Positions 6,105 through 41,429 of a stretch of DNA of 41,430 bases are shown in pieces. How positions within the stretch are numbered: the stretch's first letter is position 1; each line of letters starts with the position of its first letter. Both the position numbers and the translations under genes were made by a program. The DNA is from Opitutaceae bacterium. Lineage in GTDB: Bacteria; Verrucomicrobiota; Verrucomicrobiia; Opitutales; Opitutaceae. The stretch is from assembly GCA_018667915.1 (NCBI GenBank), contig JABIRI010000107.1, positions 1 to 41,430 on the forward strand, in the 5' to 3' direction. Under the pieces are notes generated by a model. That model made no database searches. It was given only the letters and a program-made list of their open reading frames with translations, and was not told where the DNA came from.

Positions 6105-6204
6105 TTTTTGAAGGAGCGAGTAGTGAGTAGCGGGGAGCGAGTAGCCCATAATATGAAACATGGTAAATCATGCTCACTACTCGCTACTCGAAGCTCGCTA
6201 CTTT
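6105..6204. repeat. Inverted pair of heptamer-repeat blocks without a gene (empty cassette)
   Basis: The left block (6105-6145) reads as GAGTAGT, GAGTAGC, GGGGAGC, GAGTAGC heptamers. The right block (6169-6204) reads the same unit in reverse (CTCACTA, CTCGCTA, CTCGAAG, CTCGCTA). About 23 bases separate them. The first 23 bases of the right block (6169-6191) are identical to the right block beside the four-helix gene (10846-10868). The left edge shares CATTTTTTGAA with the pheT edge. It fills almost the whole gatA-gatB gap. Confidence 0.85.
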
Positions 6205-10440: not shown

Positions 10441-10483
10441 TTTTTGAAAAGTAGTGAGTAGCGGGTAGTGGGTAGCGAGTAGA
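10441..10483. repeat. Heptamer-repeat block, pheT side of the four-helix cassette
   Basis: After TTTTTGAA come five degenerate units AAGTAGT, GAGTAGC, GGGTAGT, GGGTAGC, GAGTAGA. The block abuts the pheT start codon and is the inverted partner of the block at 10846-10878. Confidence 0.85.
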
Positions 10484-10491
10484 CGCGAAAC

Positions 10492-10848
10492 CTATCGCTT
10501 CATGCCGTTGATATAACCTTGGAGGATTCGAGAGACCTCCTCCAAGTCAGCCTGCAATGCCGTCGTATCTGCGTAGTTCAAATCGTGGGCCAAAATGAGG
10601 TGATAGAGACATTCGTCGGCTGAAGCCTCCGCCATATTGTAGAAACGAACTTTGTCGGGGACGGTGCGCTTCCGAAATCCCTCGACAAAATTCGCGGGAA
10701 TACTCGCGGCGGCTCGCCGCAATTGGGATATGAGTCCGAACGATTCGTGGGACGGTAAAGCATTAGTTAATGCGTAAATCGCTAACGTGAATGCATGGGC
10801 CTTTTGCCAGACAACAACCTCACGAAATGACTGTGACGGGTTTTCCAT
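10492..10848 (-). CDS. Four-helix-bundle protein (23S rRNA intervening-sequence / S23-like family)
   Basis: 118 residues from ATG 10848. It matches the small four-helix-bundle family first met as ORFs in 23S rRNA intervening sequences: N-terminal SFREVVVWQKAHAF, then LISQLRRAAASIPANFVEG, then a FYNMAEASADECLYHLILAHDL helix and a final helix ending in ILQGYINGM. The molecular role is unknown; proteins of this family form pentameric bundles. A GTG at 10854 is in frame, but ATG 10848 gives the standard start. That ATG lies inside the last heptamer unit (GAGCATG) of the flanking repeat. The gene splits pheS from pheT and is flanked by inverted heptamer blocks, which marks it as an inserted cassette rather than an original operon member. 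Confidence 0.93.
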   Translation of the reverse strand: MENPSQSFREVVVWQKAHAFTLAIYALTNALPSHESFGLISQLRRAAASIPANFVEGFRKRTVPDKVRFYNMAEASADECLYHLILAHDLNYADTTALQADLEEVSRILQGYINGMKR

Positions 10849-10878
10849 GCTCACTACTCGCTACTCGATGCTCGCTCC
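10846..10878. repeat. Heptamer-repeat block, pheS side of the four-helix cassette
   Basis: Read on the minus strand it is GAGCATC, GAGTAGC, GAGTAGT, GAGCATG; the last unit supplies the ATG of the four-helix gene. Its first 23 plus-strand bases (10846-10868) are identical to 6169-6191 in the gatA-gatB gap. Confidence 0.85.
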
Positions 10879-10884
10879 TGTTTC

Positions 10885-34204: not shown

Positions 34205-34244
34205 AAGTAAGAATCCCCTCCAACCGCCTCACCCCAAGCCAATC

Positions 34245-34274
34245 GTTCTCGTTCTCGTTCTCGTTCTCTTTCTC
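34245..34274. repeat. Hexamer tract GTTCTC
   Basis: Four perfect GTTCTC copies (34245-34268) followed by one degenerate TTTCTC, 40 bases after the DUF1592 stop. There is no coding function. Confidence 0.8.
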
Positions 34275-35121: not shown

Positions 35122-36528
35122 ATGCGCCAGTTCTTGTTACTTGTTACTTGCTACGTGTTACTTCCGTTTAGCGGTTTTGCCGCCGATCGGCCCAACATCC
35201 TGATCTTCTTCATCGACGACATGGGTTACGGCGATCCGAGTTGCTTTGGCAACGAACTCGTCGAGACACCTCACATCGATAGCCTCGCCGCCGAAGGTCG
35301 CCGATTCACCAACTTCTACGTCAACTCGCCGATCTGTTCTGCCTCCCGGGTCGCCTTGAGCACCGGTCAGTATCAACAACGCTGGCGCATCCAATCCCAC
35401 CTCGCCAGCCGCAAAGCCAACGCAGAGCGGAAGATGGCGGACTACCTTGATCCTGCCGCGATCCACACCGCTCAGATTTTCCACGACGCGGGCTACCGCA
35501 CGGCTCATTTTGGCAAATGGCACATGGGCGGCGGACGCGACGTCGATGACGCGCCCCACCCCGCCGCTTACGGTTTTGAGGAGGCGCTGGTTTCCTTCGA
35601 AGGTCTTGGTGATCGCCTCCTCTTTGGCACCGGCAACTTGGACAAACAGAGCGCCGCACTCGGCCAGGGAAAAATCACCCAAGTCGAAAAACGCACCGCC
35701 ACTCAGCGCTACGTGGACCGCGCCCGGGAGTTCATCAGTCGCGAGGATGATCGCCCCTTTTACCTCGAACTGTTTCCCAACGACGTGCACGACAGGTTCA
35801 TTCCCACCGACGAGGCTGCTGCGAAATTTTCAGCCGTGACCGACAATCCCGAAGAACAAAAATTCTTCGCCGTGTTGACCGAGATGGATCGCCAAATCGG
35901 CCGCCTACTTGCACAGTTAGAAACCAACGGTCAGGTCGAAAACACCATCGTAATTTTCACCAGTGACAACGGCGCCACCGACTGGCCTCGCTACTACAAA
36001 GCGGGCATTGAACCACCCGGCTCCTCCGGGCCTTTCTTTGGCCGCAAGTGGAGTCTCTATGAAGGCGGTATCCGCATGCCCTTCATCATTCGATGGCCCG
36101 GCCACGTGCCCGCGCAAACGACCGACAACATAAGTGTCGTCGCCGCCTTCGACATCCAACCTACCTTGCTCGCCCTCACTGGAACACCCACGCCAAAAGG
36201 GAAACTCTACGACGGTCGCGATCGATCCGCCGTGCTCCTCGGCGAACCCGCGTTACGCGACTCCCCCGTCTTTTGGGAGTATGGCGCATATGGTAGCCTC
36301 GCCCCCGGCAAGGCCGAGCATGCCAGCCCGTATCTCGCCATGCGCCTCGGCAACTGGAAGTTCCTCATCAACCCCGATGGAACCGACCCGCAACTCTATG
36401 ATCTCTCCACCGACATCCGCGAGCAGCACAACCTTGTCGCCACTCACCCTGCCCTCGTCAATTTCCTCACCGAACGCACCCTAAAATGGTGGTCCGAAAT
36501 GAGCGCACACTATGCGCCTGATCTCTGA
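35122..36528 (+). CDS. Secreted type I sulfatase (Cys-type, CSASR)
   Basis: 468 residues from ATG 35122 (MRQFLLLVTCYVLLPFSGFAAD); an in-frame start at 35059 precedes the signal peptide and is rejected. The signal peptide core is encoded by heptamer repeats. Metal ligands D32-D33 (FIDDMGYGD), formylglycine motif CSASR with C72, GKWH with K132 and H134, and SDNG are present, so it should be active. The usual NVHTP histidine region reads NDVHDRF. It is the first of four sulfatases in a row on the plus strand and differs from them in the core motif. The stop is 22 bases before an inverted heptamer block. Substrate unknown; probably a sulfated polysaccharide. Confidence 0.93.
   Translation: MRQFLLLVTCYVLLPFSGFAADRPNILIFFIDDMGYGDPSCFGNELVETPHIDSLAAEGRRFTNFYVNSPICSASRVALSTGQYQQRWRIQSHLASRKANAERKMADYLDPAAIHTAQIFHDAGYRTAHFGKWHMGGGRDVDDAPHPAAYGFEEALVSFEGLGDRLLFGTGNLDKQSAALGQGKITQVEKRTATQRYVDRAREFISREDDRPFYLELFPNDVHDRFIPTDEAAAKFSAVTDNPEEQKFFAVLTEMDRQIGRLLAQLETNGQVENTIVIFTSDNGATDWPRYYKAGIEPPGSSGPFFGRKWSLYEGGIRMPFIIRWPGHVPAQTTDNISVVAAFDIQPTLLALTGTPTPKGKLYDGRDRSAVLLGEPALRDSPVFWEYGAYGSLAPGKAEHASPYLAMRLGNWKFLINPDGTDPQLYDLSTDIREQHNLVATHPALVNFLTERTLKWWSEMSAHYAPDL
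35131..35166. repeat. Heptamer-repeat block inside sulfatase signal-peptide codons
   Basis: Units CTTGTTA, CTTGTTA, CTTGCTA, CGTGTTA, then CTTCCG. Its reverse complement matches 36551-36586 at 32 of 36 positions, with the same number of units. Confidence 0.85.
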
Positions 36529-36550
36529 TCGCGCTAAGGAACAAACCTAT

Positions 36551-36586
36551 CGGAAGTAACAAGTATCAGGTATCAAGTAACAAGAA
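36551..36586. repeat. Inverted heptamer block after the sulfatase gene
   Basis: CGGAAG, then TAACAAG, TATCAGG, TATCAAG, TAACAAGAA: the inverted partner of 35131-36166-side block at 35131-35166. The pair encloses nearly the whole sulfatase gene. Confidence 0.85.
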
Positions 36587-36685
36587 AACCACTCCAACGC
36601 ACCGGGCTCATCCAACTTCGCCAAGGCGCCGTCGGACAAGCCGAGCCCGACTACAAACCAAACATTTTCCCGCAAATCGATGTAG

Positions 36686-36704
36686 CCGGGGTCGCTGACC
36701 CCGG
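36686..36704. repeat. Perfect palindrome, REP-like
   Basis: CCGGGGTC (36686-36693), loop GCT, GACCCCGG (36697-36704), preceded by TGTAG. There is no T-run. It is part of a 358-base non-coding gap (36529-36886) that also holds a second palindrome and two degenerate direct repeats. Confidence 0.7.
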
Positions 36705-36736
36705 TCCCCATCTTTACCTCCACCACTCCGACGTGG

Positions 36737-36755
36737 GTCGGGCTTTACGCCCGAC
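36737..36755. repeat. Second REP-like palindrome
   Basis: GTCGGGC (36737-36743), loop TTTAC, GCCCGAC (36749-36755), 33 bases after the previous palindrome. Together they look like extragenic palindromic repeats rather than terminators. Confidence 0.7.
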
Positions 36756-36772
36756 ATCCCCCTGCCCCTCCG

Positions 36773-36880
36773 TTTCGTGTCCTTCGTGTAATGTCAGGCC
36801 ATTCACTCCGTTCATAGACGTGGTTAATAAATCAATCCTGCCTCAACGAATCTGAGTCCATCTGTGAAATCTGTGGTTAA
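36773..36880. repeat. Two degenerate direct-repeat stretches upstream of a sulfatase
   Basis: TTTCGTGTCCTTCGTGTA (36773-36790) and three ATCTGxGxx units (36850-36880) ending six bases before the sulfatase ATG. Neither encodes a protein. The second stretch forms the 5' leader of the gene. Confidence 0.5.
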
Positions 36881-36886
36881 AATTCT

Positions 36887-38299
36887 ATGCTGCCCCTCCA
36901 TCTTAAACCCCTGCTACTTGCTACTTGCGGCTTGTTCTTCCCGATCGTCGGCTTCGCCGCCGATCGGCCGAGTATCGTTCTCATCGTGGCCGACGATCTA
37001 GGTTACGGCGACGTCGGTTTCCACGGAAGCGACATCCAGACGCCGAACCTCGACCAACTCGCCGCGACCGGTGTCAGTCTTGAACAATTCTACGTCGCGC
37101 CCATGTGCTCCCCCACCCGCGCGGGCCTCATGACCGGACGCTATCCCCTGCGGTTTGGCATGATGCGCGCGGTCATCCCGCCCCAACGCGATTTTGGGCT
37201 CGATCCCACGGAGACCATTTTGCCTGAGTTCCTGCGCGACGCGGGTTACGCCCATCGGGGCATTTTCGGCAAATGGCACCTCGGCCATGCTCAGCAAAAA
37301 TGGCGCCCAACGTCGCAGGGATTCACGATATTCGAAGGTTGTCTGAACGGCGCCGTCGATTACTTCACCCAAGACCGCGAAGGCGAACGCGATTGGCATC
37401 TCAACAACGGCACCAGCCCCCGCACCGGTTACACCACCGATCTGATCGGCGATGCCGCGGTTGAGTTCATCGCATCGATTCCGGCCGACGAACCCTACTT
37501 CGCATACGTGCCGTTCACGGCTCCCCATTCTCCCTTTCAAGCCAAACCCGAAGACCTCGCCAAATATCCCGATCGGCCGGAGGGCAGAGTCCGCACCTTC
37601 GCCGCCATGGTCGATTCGATGGATCAAGCGATCGGTCGCATTCTAAAAACGGTCGAAGATCGCACGGATGCCGCCAATACGATCGTGCTCTTCATGAGCG
37701 ACAATGGCGGGGTCAACAAAGTCGGAGACAACGGCCCCCAACGCGGCGCCAAACTCACTGTCTATCAAGGCGGCATCCGCGTCGCCGCAGTCGCTCGCTG
37801 GCCCGCAGGTGGCATTGTGGGCGGGGGCACTTCAAACGCCCGCATCGGTTACATCGACATCCTGCCCACGCTCCTTTCCGCCATCGGCCACCATGCCTCT
37901 CCCCGGAAACCAATCGACGGCGTGGACGCATTGGCTGCCATCCGTGGTAATGCGACCTTACCCGACCGGGCTTGGCTCACCTATTTGGATCAAAACGACG
38001 ATGCACGCGAGCGGTTCGCGTTGAACCACGACAACTACAAACTCGTGGTGCAACGGGATGCCACCGACGCGACCCTAAGCCGCCCCGCCCAGATCGAGCT
38101 TTTCGATATCTCAGATGACCCCTCGGAATCGAACAATCTCGCCAACACCGACGCCCCAACGCTCGCCGAACTGAATTCTGCGTTGGAGAATCTGATGAAA
38201 CTGAAGTCTACCTCGCAAGTCAGCCGCTTCCGCGAAGGTCGAGACGGATTCAAAGCTCCGGCCGATTGGCAGATACCGAGCGCTGCGCGCTCGAAGTAA
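36887..38299 (+). CDS. Secreted type I sulfatase (Cys-type), arylsulfatase B-like
   Basis: 470 residues with signal peptide MLPLHLKPLLLATCGLFFPIVGFA cut near residue 25. Ligands D36-D37 (VADDLGYGD), formylglycine motif CSPTRAGLMTGRYP with C74, FGKWHLGH, APHSPF histidine, and SDNGG are all present; YVAPMCSPTRAGLMTGRYP is the pattern of arylsulfatase B-type enzymes. The signal codons carry a decayed heptamer block (36911-36943), and the stop codon TAA (38297-38299) lies inside the downstream heptamer block. A long hairpin with a short T-run follows at 38364. Confidence 0.93.
   Translation: MLPLHLKPLLLATCGLFFPIVGFAADRPSIVLIVADDLGYGDVGFHGSDIQTPNLDQLAATGVSLEQFYVAPMCSPTRAGLMTGRYPLRFGMMRAVIPPQRDFGLDPTETILPEFLRDAGYAHRGIFGKWHLGHAQQKWRPTSQGFTIFEGCLNGAVDYFTQDREGERDWHLNNGTSPRTGYTTDLIGDAAVEFIASIPADEPYFAYVPFTAPHSPFQAKPEDLAKYPDRPEGRVRTFAAMVDSMDQAIGRILKTVEDRTDAANTIVLFMSDNGGVNKVGDNGPQRGAKLTVYQGGIRVAAVARWPAGGIVGGGTSNARIGYIDILPTLLSAIGHHASPRKPIDGVDALAAIRGNATLPDRAWLTYLDQNDDARERFALNHDNYKLVVQRDATDATLSRPAQIELFDISDDPSESNNLANTDAPTLAELNSALENLMKLKSTSQVSRFREGRDGFKAPADWQIPSAARSK
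36911..36943. repeat. Heptamer block in signal-peptide codons of the third sulfatase
   Basis: Units CTTGCTA, CTTGCGG, CTTGTTC, then TTCCCG; more decayed than the block at 35131. Confidence 0.65.
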
Positions 38300-38330
38300 C
38301 AATTTCCAAGTATCAAGTCACAAGTCACCA
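38292..38330. repeat. Inverted heptamer block at the stop of the third sulfatase
   Basis: CGAAGTAACAA, then AAGTATC, AAGTCAC, AAGTCAC. The sulfatase stop codon is the TAA of the first unit. Confidence 0.75.
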
Positions 38331-38363
38331 AACGTAAACTTACCCCCGGGATCATATCGTTAG

Positions 38364-38407
38364 AAAGTTAGTTACGTCCCGCCTTGCGGGCCGTAACTAA
38401 CTTTTTC
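38364..38407 (+). terminator. Long hairpin after the third sulfatase
   Basis: AAAGTTAGTTACG (38364-38376) pairs over 13 bases with CGTAACTAACTTT (38392-38404). Inside it CCCGC/GCGGG (38378-38382 and 38386-38390) pairs around loop CTT. It is followed by TTTCC. It works as a terminator on paper, but its length and its TTAGTTAC ends also resemble a small palindromic mobile repeat. Confidence 0.65.
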
Positions 38408-38499
38408 CGACCTACCCCCTTCCAACCGCGTCCGCTCCCCCTCCCGGCACCCTACCACCCCTCCCAATCGCCTTCCCCTACCTGCCCAGGCCTCTACCC

Positions 38500-39879
38500 A
38501 TGCTATCCCATCGTTCTAAAATCCTGATACTTGTTACGTGCTGCTTGTTACTTCCGCTCTGCGGCAACGCTGCTGAGCGGCTGAATCTCGTCGTAATCCT
38601 CGCCGATGATTTCTCGCACAGCGACGCCTCCCTCTACGGCGGCCAAGCCGCTACCCCGCACATGGAGCGACTGGCCACCGAAGGTATGACGTTCTCACGG
38701 ACATTTCAGTCCGCTCCGATGTGCTCGCCCACGCGCCAAGCCCTCTACACCGCACTTCATCCGGTAAAATCCGGAGCGTGGCCCAACCACGCCTACGTCT
38801 ACGATCACGTCCGCAGCGTTCCTCACTTCCTTCTGGAAAGCGGCTACCGCGCCGCTCTTTCCGGCAAGACCCACTACAACCCACACGAAAACTTTCCCTT
38901 CGAACGCCTGCAGGGAGAAAAATGGACCAACAATCCAAATTTTGGCGAGGTCGACAAATTCCTCAGCGAGTGCGTCACCAACGATACGCCCTTCGGACTT
39001 TTTCTCACATCCAACGAACCGCATACGCCTTGGAATAAAGGCGACGCGTCAGCCTACCCGCCGGACGAACTCGTGCTCCCCACGCCGCTTGTCGACACGC
39101 CCAAGACCCGCACCGATTTTTCCGCCTACCTCGCTGAGATCACTTACTTCGATTCTCAGGTGGGCGAAGCACTCGCGGCGCTCGAAAAACACGGCCTCGT
39201 CGATGATACGATTGTCATCGTGCTAACCGAACAGGGGAACGCGTTCCCCTTTGCCAAATGGACCTGTTACGATATTGGAATCGGCTCCGGCATGGTAATC
39301 CGCTGGCCGGGAAAAGTCGCCGCTGGCTCAACAAGTGATGCCCTCATCGAATACGTCGACATCGTGCCCACGTTCTTGGACGCCGCCGGCTTGCCGATCC
39401 CTGACGGACTCGATGGCCAATCCTTCCAAGCGGTGCTGACGGGGAAATCCACCACGCACAAAGACTACGCCTACGGCCTGCAAACCTCCACCGGCATCAA
39501 CGAGTTTCCGGGCTACTACGGCATCCGCACCGTGCGCGATGAACGCTACCGCTACATCCGCAACCTCACGCCATGGGTCTCGTTTCGAAACGCCGTTTTC
39601 CGCAACGACTACTGGAACGAATGGGTAGACGCAGCCGCAGCTGGAGAACCCGAAGCCATGTTCGCCGTCCGACGCTACCAACACCGCCCCGCCGAAGAAC
39701 TCTACGACTGCATGGCCGACCCCTGGAACCGACACAACCTGATCGACGATCCGGCTTTCGCATCTGTGAAGGCCCGCCTGTCCGGCAAGCTCGAAGCGTG
39801 GATGGAAGAGCAAGGCGACCAAGGCCACGCCACCGAGATCGAAGCCTTCCACCGCATCTGGAAAAACCGAGAAAAGTAG
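38500..39879 (+). CDS. Secreted type I sulfatase (Cys-type), EQG variant
   Basis: 459 residues with signal peptide MLSHRSKILILVTCCLLLPLCGNAA. Ligands D36-D37 (LADDFSHSD), formylglycine motif CSPTR with C75, GKTHYNPH with K123 and H125, EPHTPW with H175. The usual SD(N/H)G calcium site reads TEQGN (E244-Q245), followed by FPFAKWTCYD with K253. The same change occurs in the next sulfatase, so it is a subfamily trait, not damage. It is a close paralogue of the gene at 40023 (shared PMCxPTR, ALHPV/GLHPV, NHxxVY, EPHTPW/QPHTPW, FPFxKWTCY). The leader before the ATG is strongly pyrimidine-rich. Confidence 0.92.
   Translation: MLSHRSKILILVTCCLLLPLCGNAAERLNLVVILADDFSHSDASLYGGQAATPHMERLATEGMTFSRTFQSAPMCSPTRQALYTALHPVKSGAWPNHAYVYDHVRSVPHFLLESGYRAALSGKTHYNPHENFPFERLQGEKWTNNPNFGEVDKFLSECVTNDTPFGLFLTSNEPHTPWNKGDASAYPPDELVLPTPLVDTPKTRTDFSAYLAEITYFDSQVGEALAALEKHGLVDDTIVIVLTEQGNAFPFAKWTCYDIGIGSGMVIRWPGKVAAGSTSDALIEYVDIVPTFLDAAGLPIPDGLDGQSFQAVLTGKSTTHKDYAYGLQTSTGINEFPGYYGIRTVRDERYRYIRNLTPWVSFRNAVFRNDYWNEWVDAAAAGEPEAMFAVRRYQHRPAEELYDCMADPWNRHNLIDDPAFASVKARLSGKLEAWMEEQGDQGHATEIEAFHRIWKNREK
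38524..38556. repeat. Heptamer block in signal-peptide codons of the fourth sulfatase
   Basis: Units CTTGTTA, CGTGCTG, CTTGTTA, then CTTCCG. The 21 bases 38545-38565 are identical to 40047-40067 in the next sulfatase. Confidence 0.75.
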
Positions 39880-39910
39880 CCCCTGCCTCTCAACTCAAAG
39901 ACCGCCCGCC

Positions 39911-39973
39911 GGGGTCAGGTCGTAAACAAGTTCTACGAAGCAACGTGAAGTAAACTTGTTACGACCTGACCCC
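39911..39973. repeat. Long inverted repeat, REP/MITE-like hairpin
   Basis: A 22-base arm (39911-39932, beginning GGGGTCAGGTCGTAA) and a 21-base arm (39953-39973) are perfect reverse complements except for one extra A in the first arm. A 20-base loop separates them. It lies in the 143-base gap between two sulfatase genes. Arms beginning GGGGTCAGGTC are, as I recall, common in REP elements moved by REP-associated tyrosine transposases; no such transposase gene is in the window. Confidence 0.8.
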
Positions 39974-40022
39974 TTCCAAAACCAGCCGCTCCCCACCACC
40001 GCGCAATCCACGGTCACCACCC

Positions 40023-41429
40023 ATGCTGCCACACCGTCTAAAAGCTTTGTTACTTCCGCTCTGCGGCTTGTTATCTCCGATCCACGGCAGCGCCGTGGAT
40101 CGGCCCAACTTCCTCGTCTTCATGGCGGACGACATGACCTACCATGATCTAGGCAGCGTCGGAAACCCCGACGTCCACACGCCTCATCTCGATAAGTTCG
40201 CCGCCGAAGGCACCACCTTCACACACGCTTACAACTCGTCCCCCATGTGCGCCCCCACGCGCATGAGTCTCTACACCGGGCTGCATCCGGTGCGCCACGG
40301 CGGTTACCCCAACCACTCCAAGGTCTACCCCGCAGTGCGCACGCTCCCACATCTGCTCGGAGACCTCGGTTACGACGTGGCTTTACTCGGCAAACGACAC
40401 GAAGAACCTGCCTCCCAATTTCCCTTCAATGTATTGGGTGGCAAACACGGCGACAAGGGCGAAGGCCTCGATCTAGACACGGGTAAAGTCGGTGACTACC
40501 TCGCAACGCATTCCGACGAATCTTGGTGTCTCATTGTTACATCGAACCAACCTCACACCCCTTGGAATCGAGGCGACGCCTCCGCTTACGATCCTTCCCT
40601 TCTCAAGCTGCCCCCCTACCTCGCAGACACGCAGGTCACCCGGAAAGCACTCGCCGCCTACTATGCCGAAATAACCTATCTCGACGAACAGTTTGGCCAT
40701 GTCATGGCCCAACTCGAAGAGCACGGTGAAGCCGAAAATACATTGGTGATTTTCCTCACCGAACAAGGCTCTAACTTCCCGTTCTGTAAGTGGACCTGTT
40801 ACGAGACCGGATTACGTGCCACCGCCATGATGCGCTGGCCCGGCCAAATCCCAACCGACGAGGCGCGCGAAACCCTGATCCAATACGTCGACATCACGCC
40901 CACCTTGGTCGACCTCGCTGGTGGGCTGATAGAAAAGAATCAATTCGACGGCTCCTCCCTTGCACAAGTCATCGGCAACCGCGAATCACCCGCGCCACAC
41001 CAATACGTCTTTGGCCTCCAAACCACCCGTGGTATTTACCACGGTTCCGAAGCCTACGCCATCCGTTCCGTGCGCGACGACCGCTACCGCTTGGTGTGGA
41101 ATTTGAATCACCACGAAAAATTCCAGAACTCGGTCACGCGAAATTTCCCGACCTACCAAAGCTGGAAATCCGCAGCCGAATCGGGGAACCACTTCGCCAC
41201 AACACGACTCCTCGACTATACCACTCGACCCGAATTTGAGCTCTACGACCTAGAACGAGATCCCTGGTCTATGACCAACCTCGCAGCCGACCCCAAACAC
41301 GCCGAGCACGTCCATCTGCTTCACGACGTGCTTCAAAAATGGATGATGCAACAGGGCGACGAGGGCATCCTCACCGAACTCGCCGCCCTCGATCGCATCC
41401 CACCGCGCGGCGAATCACGAGCGCAGTAA
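40023..41429 (+). CDS. Secreted type I sulfatase (Cys-type), EQG variant, last gene of window
   Basis: 468 residues with signal peptide MLPHRLKALLLPLCGLLSPIHGSA. Ligands D36-D37 (MADDMTYHD), formylglycine motif CAPTR with C76, GKRHEEP in place of GKWH, QPHTPW histidine, and TEQGS in place of SDNG, followed by FPFCKWTCYE. Tandem paralogue of the gene at 38500. The signal codons contain heptamer units (40047-40078). The stop TAA (41427-41429) lies in AGTAAC, one base before the window ends, and could open a downstream heptamer block. The four sulfatases share direction but have 140-360-base gaps, so separate promoters are possible. Confidence 0.92.
   Translation: MLPHRLKALLLPLCGLLSPIHGSAVDRPNFLVFMADDMTYHDLGSVGNPDVHTPHLDKFAAEGTTFTHAYNSSPMCAPTRMSLYTGLHPVRHGGYPNHSKVYPAVRTLPHLLGDLGYDVALLGKRHEEPASQFPFNVLGGKHGDKGEGLDLDTGKVGDYLATHSDESWCLIVTSNQPHTPWNRGDASAYDPSLLKLPPYLADTQVTRKALAAYYAEITYLDEQFGHVMAQLEEHGEAENTLVIFLTEQGSNFPFCKWTCYETGLRATAMMRWPGQIPTDEARETLIQYVDITPTLVDLAGGLIEKNQFDGSSLAQVIGNRESPAPHQYVFGLQTTRGIYHGSEAYAIRSVRDDRYRLVWNLNHHEKFQNSVTRNFPTYQSWKSAAESGNHFATTRLLDYTTRPEFELYDLERDPWSMTNLAADPKHAEHVHLLHDVLQKWMMQQGDEGILTELAALDRIPPRGESRAQ

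Follow-up and report, generated by a model that had tools for sequence, protein, structure and literature searches.

A dispersed heptamer repeat has probably been domesticated as a signal peptide in a sulfatase gene cluster of an Opitutaceae bacterium

The sulfatase cluster and its repeats

The window analysed here, a stretch of 41,430 nucleotides from contig JABIRI010000107.1 in the genome of an Opitutaceae bacterium (genome G000; 4.28 Mb in 361 contigs), carries four neighbouring sulfatase genes, all transcribed rightwards and listed with their repeats in Table 1. We refer to them as sulfatases 1 to 4 and to their counterparts in genome G005 as G005_1 to G005_4. All four products match PF00884 above the Pfam cut-off (E 2e-34 to 6e-49), and in their mature parts they are typical of the large family of PF00884 sulfatases with Sec signals. 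About 150 sulfatase-domain matches are present in the 4.3 Mb of this genome. Signal peptides and start sites were called by simple rules, with a hydrophobicity rule for the signals. By sequence and hydropathy the features of a Sec signal are present, namely a short basic n-region, a hydrophobic core and small residues ahead of the cleavage site, and the four sulfatases are predicted to be exported.

Sulfatases 1, 2 and 3 contain five-unit heptamer arrays within their first 25 codons, and the signal core of sulfatase 4 is built on a decayed copy, in agreement with an earlier sequence-only reading of this DNA, which had proposed that the signal cores of all four neighbours are built on the repeat. 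That reading had also placed the sulfatase near position 2955 outside the pattern, and there is no array there. The array-coded N-terminus of sulfatase 1 is part of the open reading frame, because the next methionine is residue 34 and sits inside the catalytic-core motif DDMGYGD.

Other dispersed intergenic repeats lie in the window at 36727-36755, 39914-39972 and 34243-34274. They are the hairpin GTCGGGCTTTACGCCCGAC, with approximately 30-40 copies in 1.35 Mb, an inverted repeat (GGGGTCAGGTCGT...ACGACCTGACCCC) and an array of the hexamer TCGTTC.

Table 1. Sulfatase genes and heptamer-repeat copies of the window
Feature	Position	Strand	Remarks
Inverted CTACTCG-dialect array pair, gatA-gatB gap	6110..6204	.	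minus arm 6110-6151, plus arm 6170-6204
Inverted CTACTCG-dialect array pair, pheS-pheT gap	10448..10881	.	arms 10448-10482 and 10847-10881, 23S_rRNA_IVP-family gene between them
Sulfatase 1 (PF00884), 468 aa	35122..36528	+	signal MRQFLLLVTCYVLLPFSGFAA, then DRPN; Pfam E 5e-46
Repeat core in signal peptide 1	35132..35164	+	29/33 to consensus; hairpin CCGTTTAGCGG next, 35164-35174
Antisense repeat core, ~25 bp past sulfatase 1 stop	36553..36585	-	32/33 to consensus
Sulfatase 2 (PF00884), 470 aa	36887..38299	+	signal MLPLHLKPLLLATCGLFFPIVGFAA; E 6e-49
Repeat core in signal peptide 2	36909..36941	+	22/33; CCGATCGTCGG next
Antisense repeat core spanning sulfatase 2 end	38293..38325	-	AAGTAAC unit gives TAA stop 38297-38299
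Sulfatase 3 (PF00884), 459 aa	38500..39879	+	signal MLSHRSKILILVTCCLLLPLCGNAA; E 2e-34
Repeat core in signal peptide 3	38522..38554	+	27/33; hairpin CCGCTCTGCGG next
Sulfatase 4 (PF00884), 468 aa	40023..41429	+	signal MLPHRLKALLLPLCGLLSPIHGSAV; E 3e-37
Decayed repeat core in signal peptide 4	40044..40080	+	21/33; CCGCTCTGCGG internal

Sequence and placement of the dispersed element

The survey of the repeat covered 101 stretches of the own genome with 1082 called genes (1.35 Mb, 32% of the genome); the genomes of relatives were sampled in small parts. In the own-genome sample the consensus is a fixed element of ~33 bp, TCTTGTTACTTGATACCTGNTACTTGTTACTTC, often trailed by a GC hairpin. The core is pyrimidine-rich, with about five heptamer-like units per copy (NTACYTG and CTACTCG), and in the TTACTTG dialect it reads TCTTG-TTACTTG-ATACCTG-NTACTTG-TTACTTC, ~33 bp in all. 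A GC hairpin often lies within the ~20 bp that follow a core of this dialect, and 30 of 54 intergenic cores are followed by a stem of 4 bp or more, as compared with 11.2 in shuffles. The whole of G000 contains 152 matches to the pattern YTACTYG taken three times with up to three mismatches, versus 5 for the reversed-pattern control, and a period-7 scan detects six arrays in the window where shuffled windows give none or one. Among the genomes compared, most of those in the genus are rich in arrays, and their occurrence elsewhere in the family and order is patchy.

Placement is strongly oriented relative to genes. With both dialects pooled, the own-genome sample has 48 antisense and 2 sense copies near 3' ends, versus 23 sense and 7 antisense copies near 5' ends. 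The CTACTCG dialect often forms close inverted pairs (seven within 130 bp, with the minus arm always before the plus arm), and the TTACTTG dialect has few close pairs, with the hairpin beside the core instead. Our guess is that intergenic copies act at transcript 3' ends or as protein-binding sites. In a number of genes, 16 of them listed, an antisense copy provides or touches the stop codon, some of these copies being only adjacent, and sulfatase 2 is a further case (Table 1). The stops that lie inside antisense copies suggest that the repeat also resets C-termini. Such stops were seen at L150 10451, L049 2045, L056 1737, L064 13690, L069 5041 and L072 2815.

In the pheS-pheT gap a gene of the 23S_rRNA_IVP family (a four-helix bundle; 10492-10848) lies between the arms as if inserted into the loop, and the idea that arrays mark 23S_rRNA_IVP genes was rejected, there being only nine such genes genome-wide, far below the number of arrays. 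In the gatA-gatB gap the gatB reading frame is mechanically lengthened upstream by the array (MGYSLPATHYSLLQK-MNYEAV). Here the array is a leader that merely holds the frame open upstream of the true start, the opposite of the sulfatase case, and genes of this kind are a warning for annotation.

Repeat copies within coding sequence

The coding copies in the sulfatase cluster stand out among the 469 signal-peptide-like genes of the 1.35 Mb sample. Only sulfatases 1, 2 and 3 reach an array score of at least 17, the number expected from codon shuffles being 0.18. Ranked by matches to the 33-bp core, sulfatases 1, 3, 2 and 4 head the 469 genes with 29, 27, 22 and 21 of 33 positions (median 14), the last being tied with one other gene. 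Sulfatase 4 is weak by array score, but its signal DNA shows homology with the signals of sulfatases 2 and 3 (z 18 and 9.5). The full architecture of the element (NTCYTG, three units and a final unit, allowing substitutions) is seen in the eight clear coding copies, and a stem of 4 bp or more comes directly after the core in 9 of 10, where codon shuffling predicts 3.0. In a count with the longest open reading frame masked, at least two 12-mers of dispersed repeats were present in the signal region of 5 of 440 signal genes (0.3 expected from codon shuffling); these are two array genes of the cluster, a decamer case on contig C55 and two more genes, one of which has an uncertain start. Array-coded signals as a common feature were rejected, with 3-4 cases among the 469 genes.

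It is very improbable that signals rich in Leu, Val, Thr and Cys merely happen on TTACTTG-like codons, unconnected with the intergenic element. Signal peptides are Leu-rich, TTA, CTT, TTG and GTT are ordinary codons, and heptamer scores of 10-12 are indeed hardly commoner than in codon-shuffled controls, but coincidence of this kind accounts poorly for the three highest scores, for coding copies that show both the unit number and the hairpin of the element, and for the finding of such copies in element-bearing genomes.

Separate histories of signal and enzyme

The signal DNA of sulfatases 2, 3 and 4 and of G005_4 aligns over 75 gap-free columns at 65-76% identity (codon-shuffle z 9.5-23), and the signal cores of sulfatase 1 and G005_1 join this set, whereas the mature parts of these paralogues share only 33-45% identity. 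Signal peptides usually evolve faster than mature enzymes. Orthologues with the same gene order show the reverse pattern, with sulfatase 2 and G005_2 (mature parts 80% identical) and sulfatase 3 and G005_3 (75%) having unrelated signals (z 1.7 and -0.8 respectively).

The nearest orthologue of sulfatase 1 is G005_1, at 80% protein identity; the two have the array in common, and their differences preserve the hydrophobicity of the segment. No array is present in the orthologues from G002 (~75%), G019 (62%) and more distant phyla, whose signals are unrelated. Homologues of the mature part with unrelated signals, which the sequence-only reading had suggested looking for, were thus found among orthologues outside the own/G005 pair, and a search among distant orthologues for the same signal residues encoded by non-repetitive codons found no case. 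The closest named relative found for sulfatase 1 is from an Opitutales MAG (61%). The idea that the signal of the G002 orthologue is another dispersed repeat (CTCTGTGG) was rejected, because this word does not recur as a dispersed repeat in 157 kb of that genome.

If an ancestor of the cluster had the signal and its descendants simply inherited it, all copies would be expected in the same frame and register, as they are, and an array common to sulfatase 1 and G005_1 would follow. Such inheritance alone is nonetheless improbable in view of signal DNA that is better conserved than the enzymes behind it, the two orthologue pairs with unrelated signals and the outgroups without arrays. Part of the homology between paralogue signals could reflect an old duplication with unusual conservation. 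Taken together, the discordant signals and the array-free outgroups indicate that the own/G005 lineage acquired or exchanged the module independently of the enzyme, and the separate history of their signal-peptide DNA distinguishes these genes from ordinary PF00884 sulfatases.

Recurrence in relatives

A sequence-only model of the signal module was searched in 24 genomes. The full module is present only in the own genome (4) and G005 (2), and the search of the own genome gave no full module beyond the four window genes. Partial matches are mostly intergenic repeat copies, and among those read, four in other species lie at gene starts in sense orientation. These encode the signals of sulfatases in G004 (MHRKRSFLILVTCYLLLGGLAAAAA), G007 (MRLSRLLLLVPCYLLLSLGGAAA) and G002 (MPLVRVLLLVTCYLVLAGPPAHAA), and of a further G002 gene that is not a sulfatase and has no Pfam match (SVRFLILVICSLALPAAAFAA). 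The own and G005 orthologues of the G002 sulfatase (69-71%) are array-free and have a different signal with the decamer repeat TTTTTGTGCC, a kind of repeat that also has intergenic copies; the other G002 gene has an 84% orthologue in G007 without a recognisable array.

A second oriented leader family, with units of ~10 bp (TTTCGTGTNN...GTGGTTAAAAA, ATCTGCGNNA...GCGGTTAAAA), occurs upstream of start codons at 36766-36886 in the window and at L078 126-238, L049 2227, L062 10866 and other sites. Its units seemingly extend into the signal peptides of sulfatases in C55 of the own genome and C100 of G005, and of the gene at L060 10005. Illumina Nextera adapter sequence is present at the ends of some G005 contigs, at both ends of L220 (C141), the low end of L221 (C9) and the high end of L222 (C100).

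Reading frames of the repeat

A pure TTACTTG array encodes LLVTCYL, in rotated form, in all three frames and meets TAA on the opposite strand, and a pure GCTACTC array reads SLLATRY, just as the sequence-only reading stated. Its further proposal, that the element gives a hydrophobic, export-like peptide in any frame and could easily create secreted proteins, is not supported by real copies. These consist of mixed units, and three open sense frames are found in just 6 of 53 intergenic copies, while an uncharged hydrophobic segment is obtained from only 2-5 of the 53 in each frame. The eight array-coded signals compared all read the element in a single frame, and in several of them another frame is closed. 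If the five gene groups (the own/G005 cluster, G004, G007 and two in G002) were independent, the chance of one common frame would be ~(1/3)^4, and either frame selection or common origin is therefore at work. The GCTACTC dialect is not export-like, because SLLATRY places an Arg every seven residues; its mean Kyte-Doolittle value is 0.3, compared with 2.3 for LLVTCYL. Easy creation of secreted proteins is not supported either, the event being rare and its hosts coming from a family that already bears signals, so that the element replaces a signal and no cytoplasmic protein is made secreted. The part of the proposal that survives is that the repeat probably became signal peptides, as the signal DNA matches the dispersed element including its length and trailing hairpin.

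Relationship to known repeats

Direct repeats of the heptamer TAACTGA are known in Beggiatoaceae, Cyanobacteria and Bacteroidetes (MacGregor 2015, PMC4679880). One of their strands has stops in every frame and the other encodes an open peptide, and a few copies lie inside open reading frames, mainly in peripheral positions, with one near the start of a permease (PMC4679880); that report makes no mention of signal peptides, Verrucomicrobia or Opitutus-like taxa. The element described here resembles them as a short tandem heptamer (2-6 copies) that is dispersed, mainly intergenic and biased in orientation relative to gene starts, but it differs in its units (NTACYTG and CTACTCG), in having a core of fixed length with a hairpin, in using both gene edges and in coding copies that are signal peptides. 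It works like the TAACTGA-type repeats, yet we do not class it as a member.

The best known in-frame repeat insertions are the Rickettsia palindromic elements (RPEs), of ~150 bp, which occur in many unrelated metabolic genes (PMC10969869); the words "signal peptide" are absent from that article. As with RPEs and MITE-like elements, a small dispersed and putatively hairpin-forming repeat survives in frame within coding sequence. The present element is shorter, at about 33-55 bp, and all coding copies found lie in signal peptides, those of a few proteins predicted to be exported.

Origin of the array-coded signals

The element may have reached these genes without any insertion into coding DNA. 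In this alternative it would be a leader or RNA feature with a function at gene starts, and a shift of the start codon to an in-frame ATG upstream would have captured it as a signal. We regard this as possible but rather unlikely. Intergenic copies near 5' ends are already mostly in sense orientation, the gatB array keeps a frame open upstream of the true start, and the decamer leader family also extends into some signal peptides, all of which fit such an extension. Homologues, however, have a signal at the same position already, so extension must include loss of the old signal, and in sulfatase 1 the array occupies the h-region, its spacing from the mature start being the usual one. This alternative differs from the explanation we favour in its first step only and otherwise overlaps with it.

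We think it probable, judging from sequence comparison, that a gene-edge repeat has occasionally been domesticated as a signal peptide and that the resulting module has been shared locally. The short element, with its ~33-bp core of five heptamer-like units and frequent GC hairpin, occupies gene edges in the genus, and its sense strand in one particular frame can yield FLLLVTCYLLLP. In the sulfatase cluster, copies at 5' ends, presumably inserted as the first step, would have turned into the hydrophobic core of the signal peptide, with the trailing hairpin encoding the stretch ahead of the cleavage site. The module from start codon to cleavage site would then have passed between adjacent paralogues, with gene conversion or repeat-mediated recombination as the likeliest route, and selection would have retained one frame and purged codons giving Asp or stop.

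Implications

A broader proposition, which we consider unlikely, is that the repeat is a genus-wide exchangeable N-terminal module, with sense copies at 5' ends donating export signals, antisense copies at 3' ends donating stops, and signals being swapped between members of large groups of secreted enzymes such as the ~150 sulfatases. The second, decamer repeat family may do likewise. To our knowledge, the origins of signal peptides, and their faster turnover than that of the proteins they export, are poorly documented at the DNA level. In this case the source sequence can be recognised, the genome itself contains its intergenic relatives, and some orthologues have the element while others lack it, so that the step from non-coding repeat DNA to targeting signal is directly testable.
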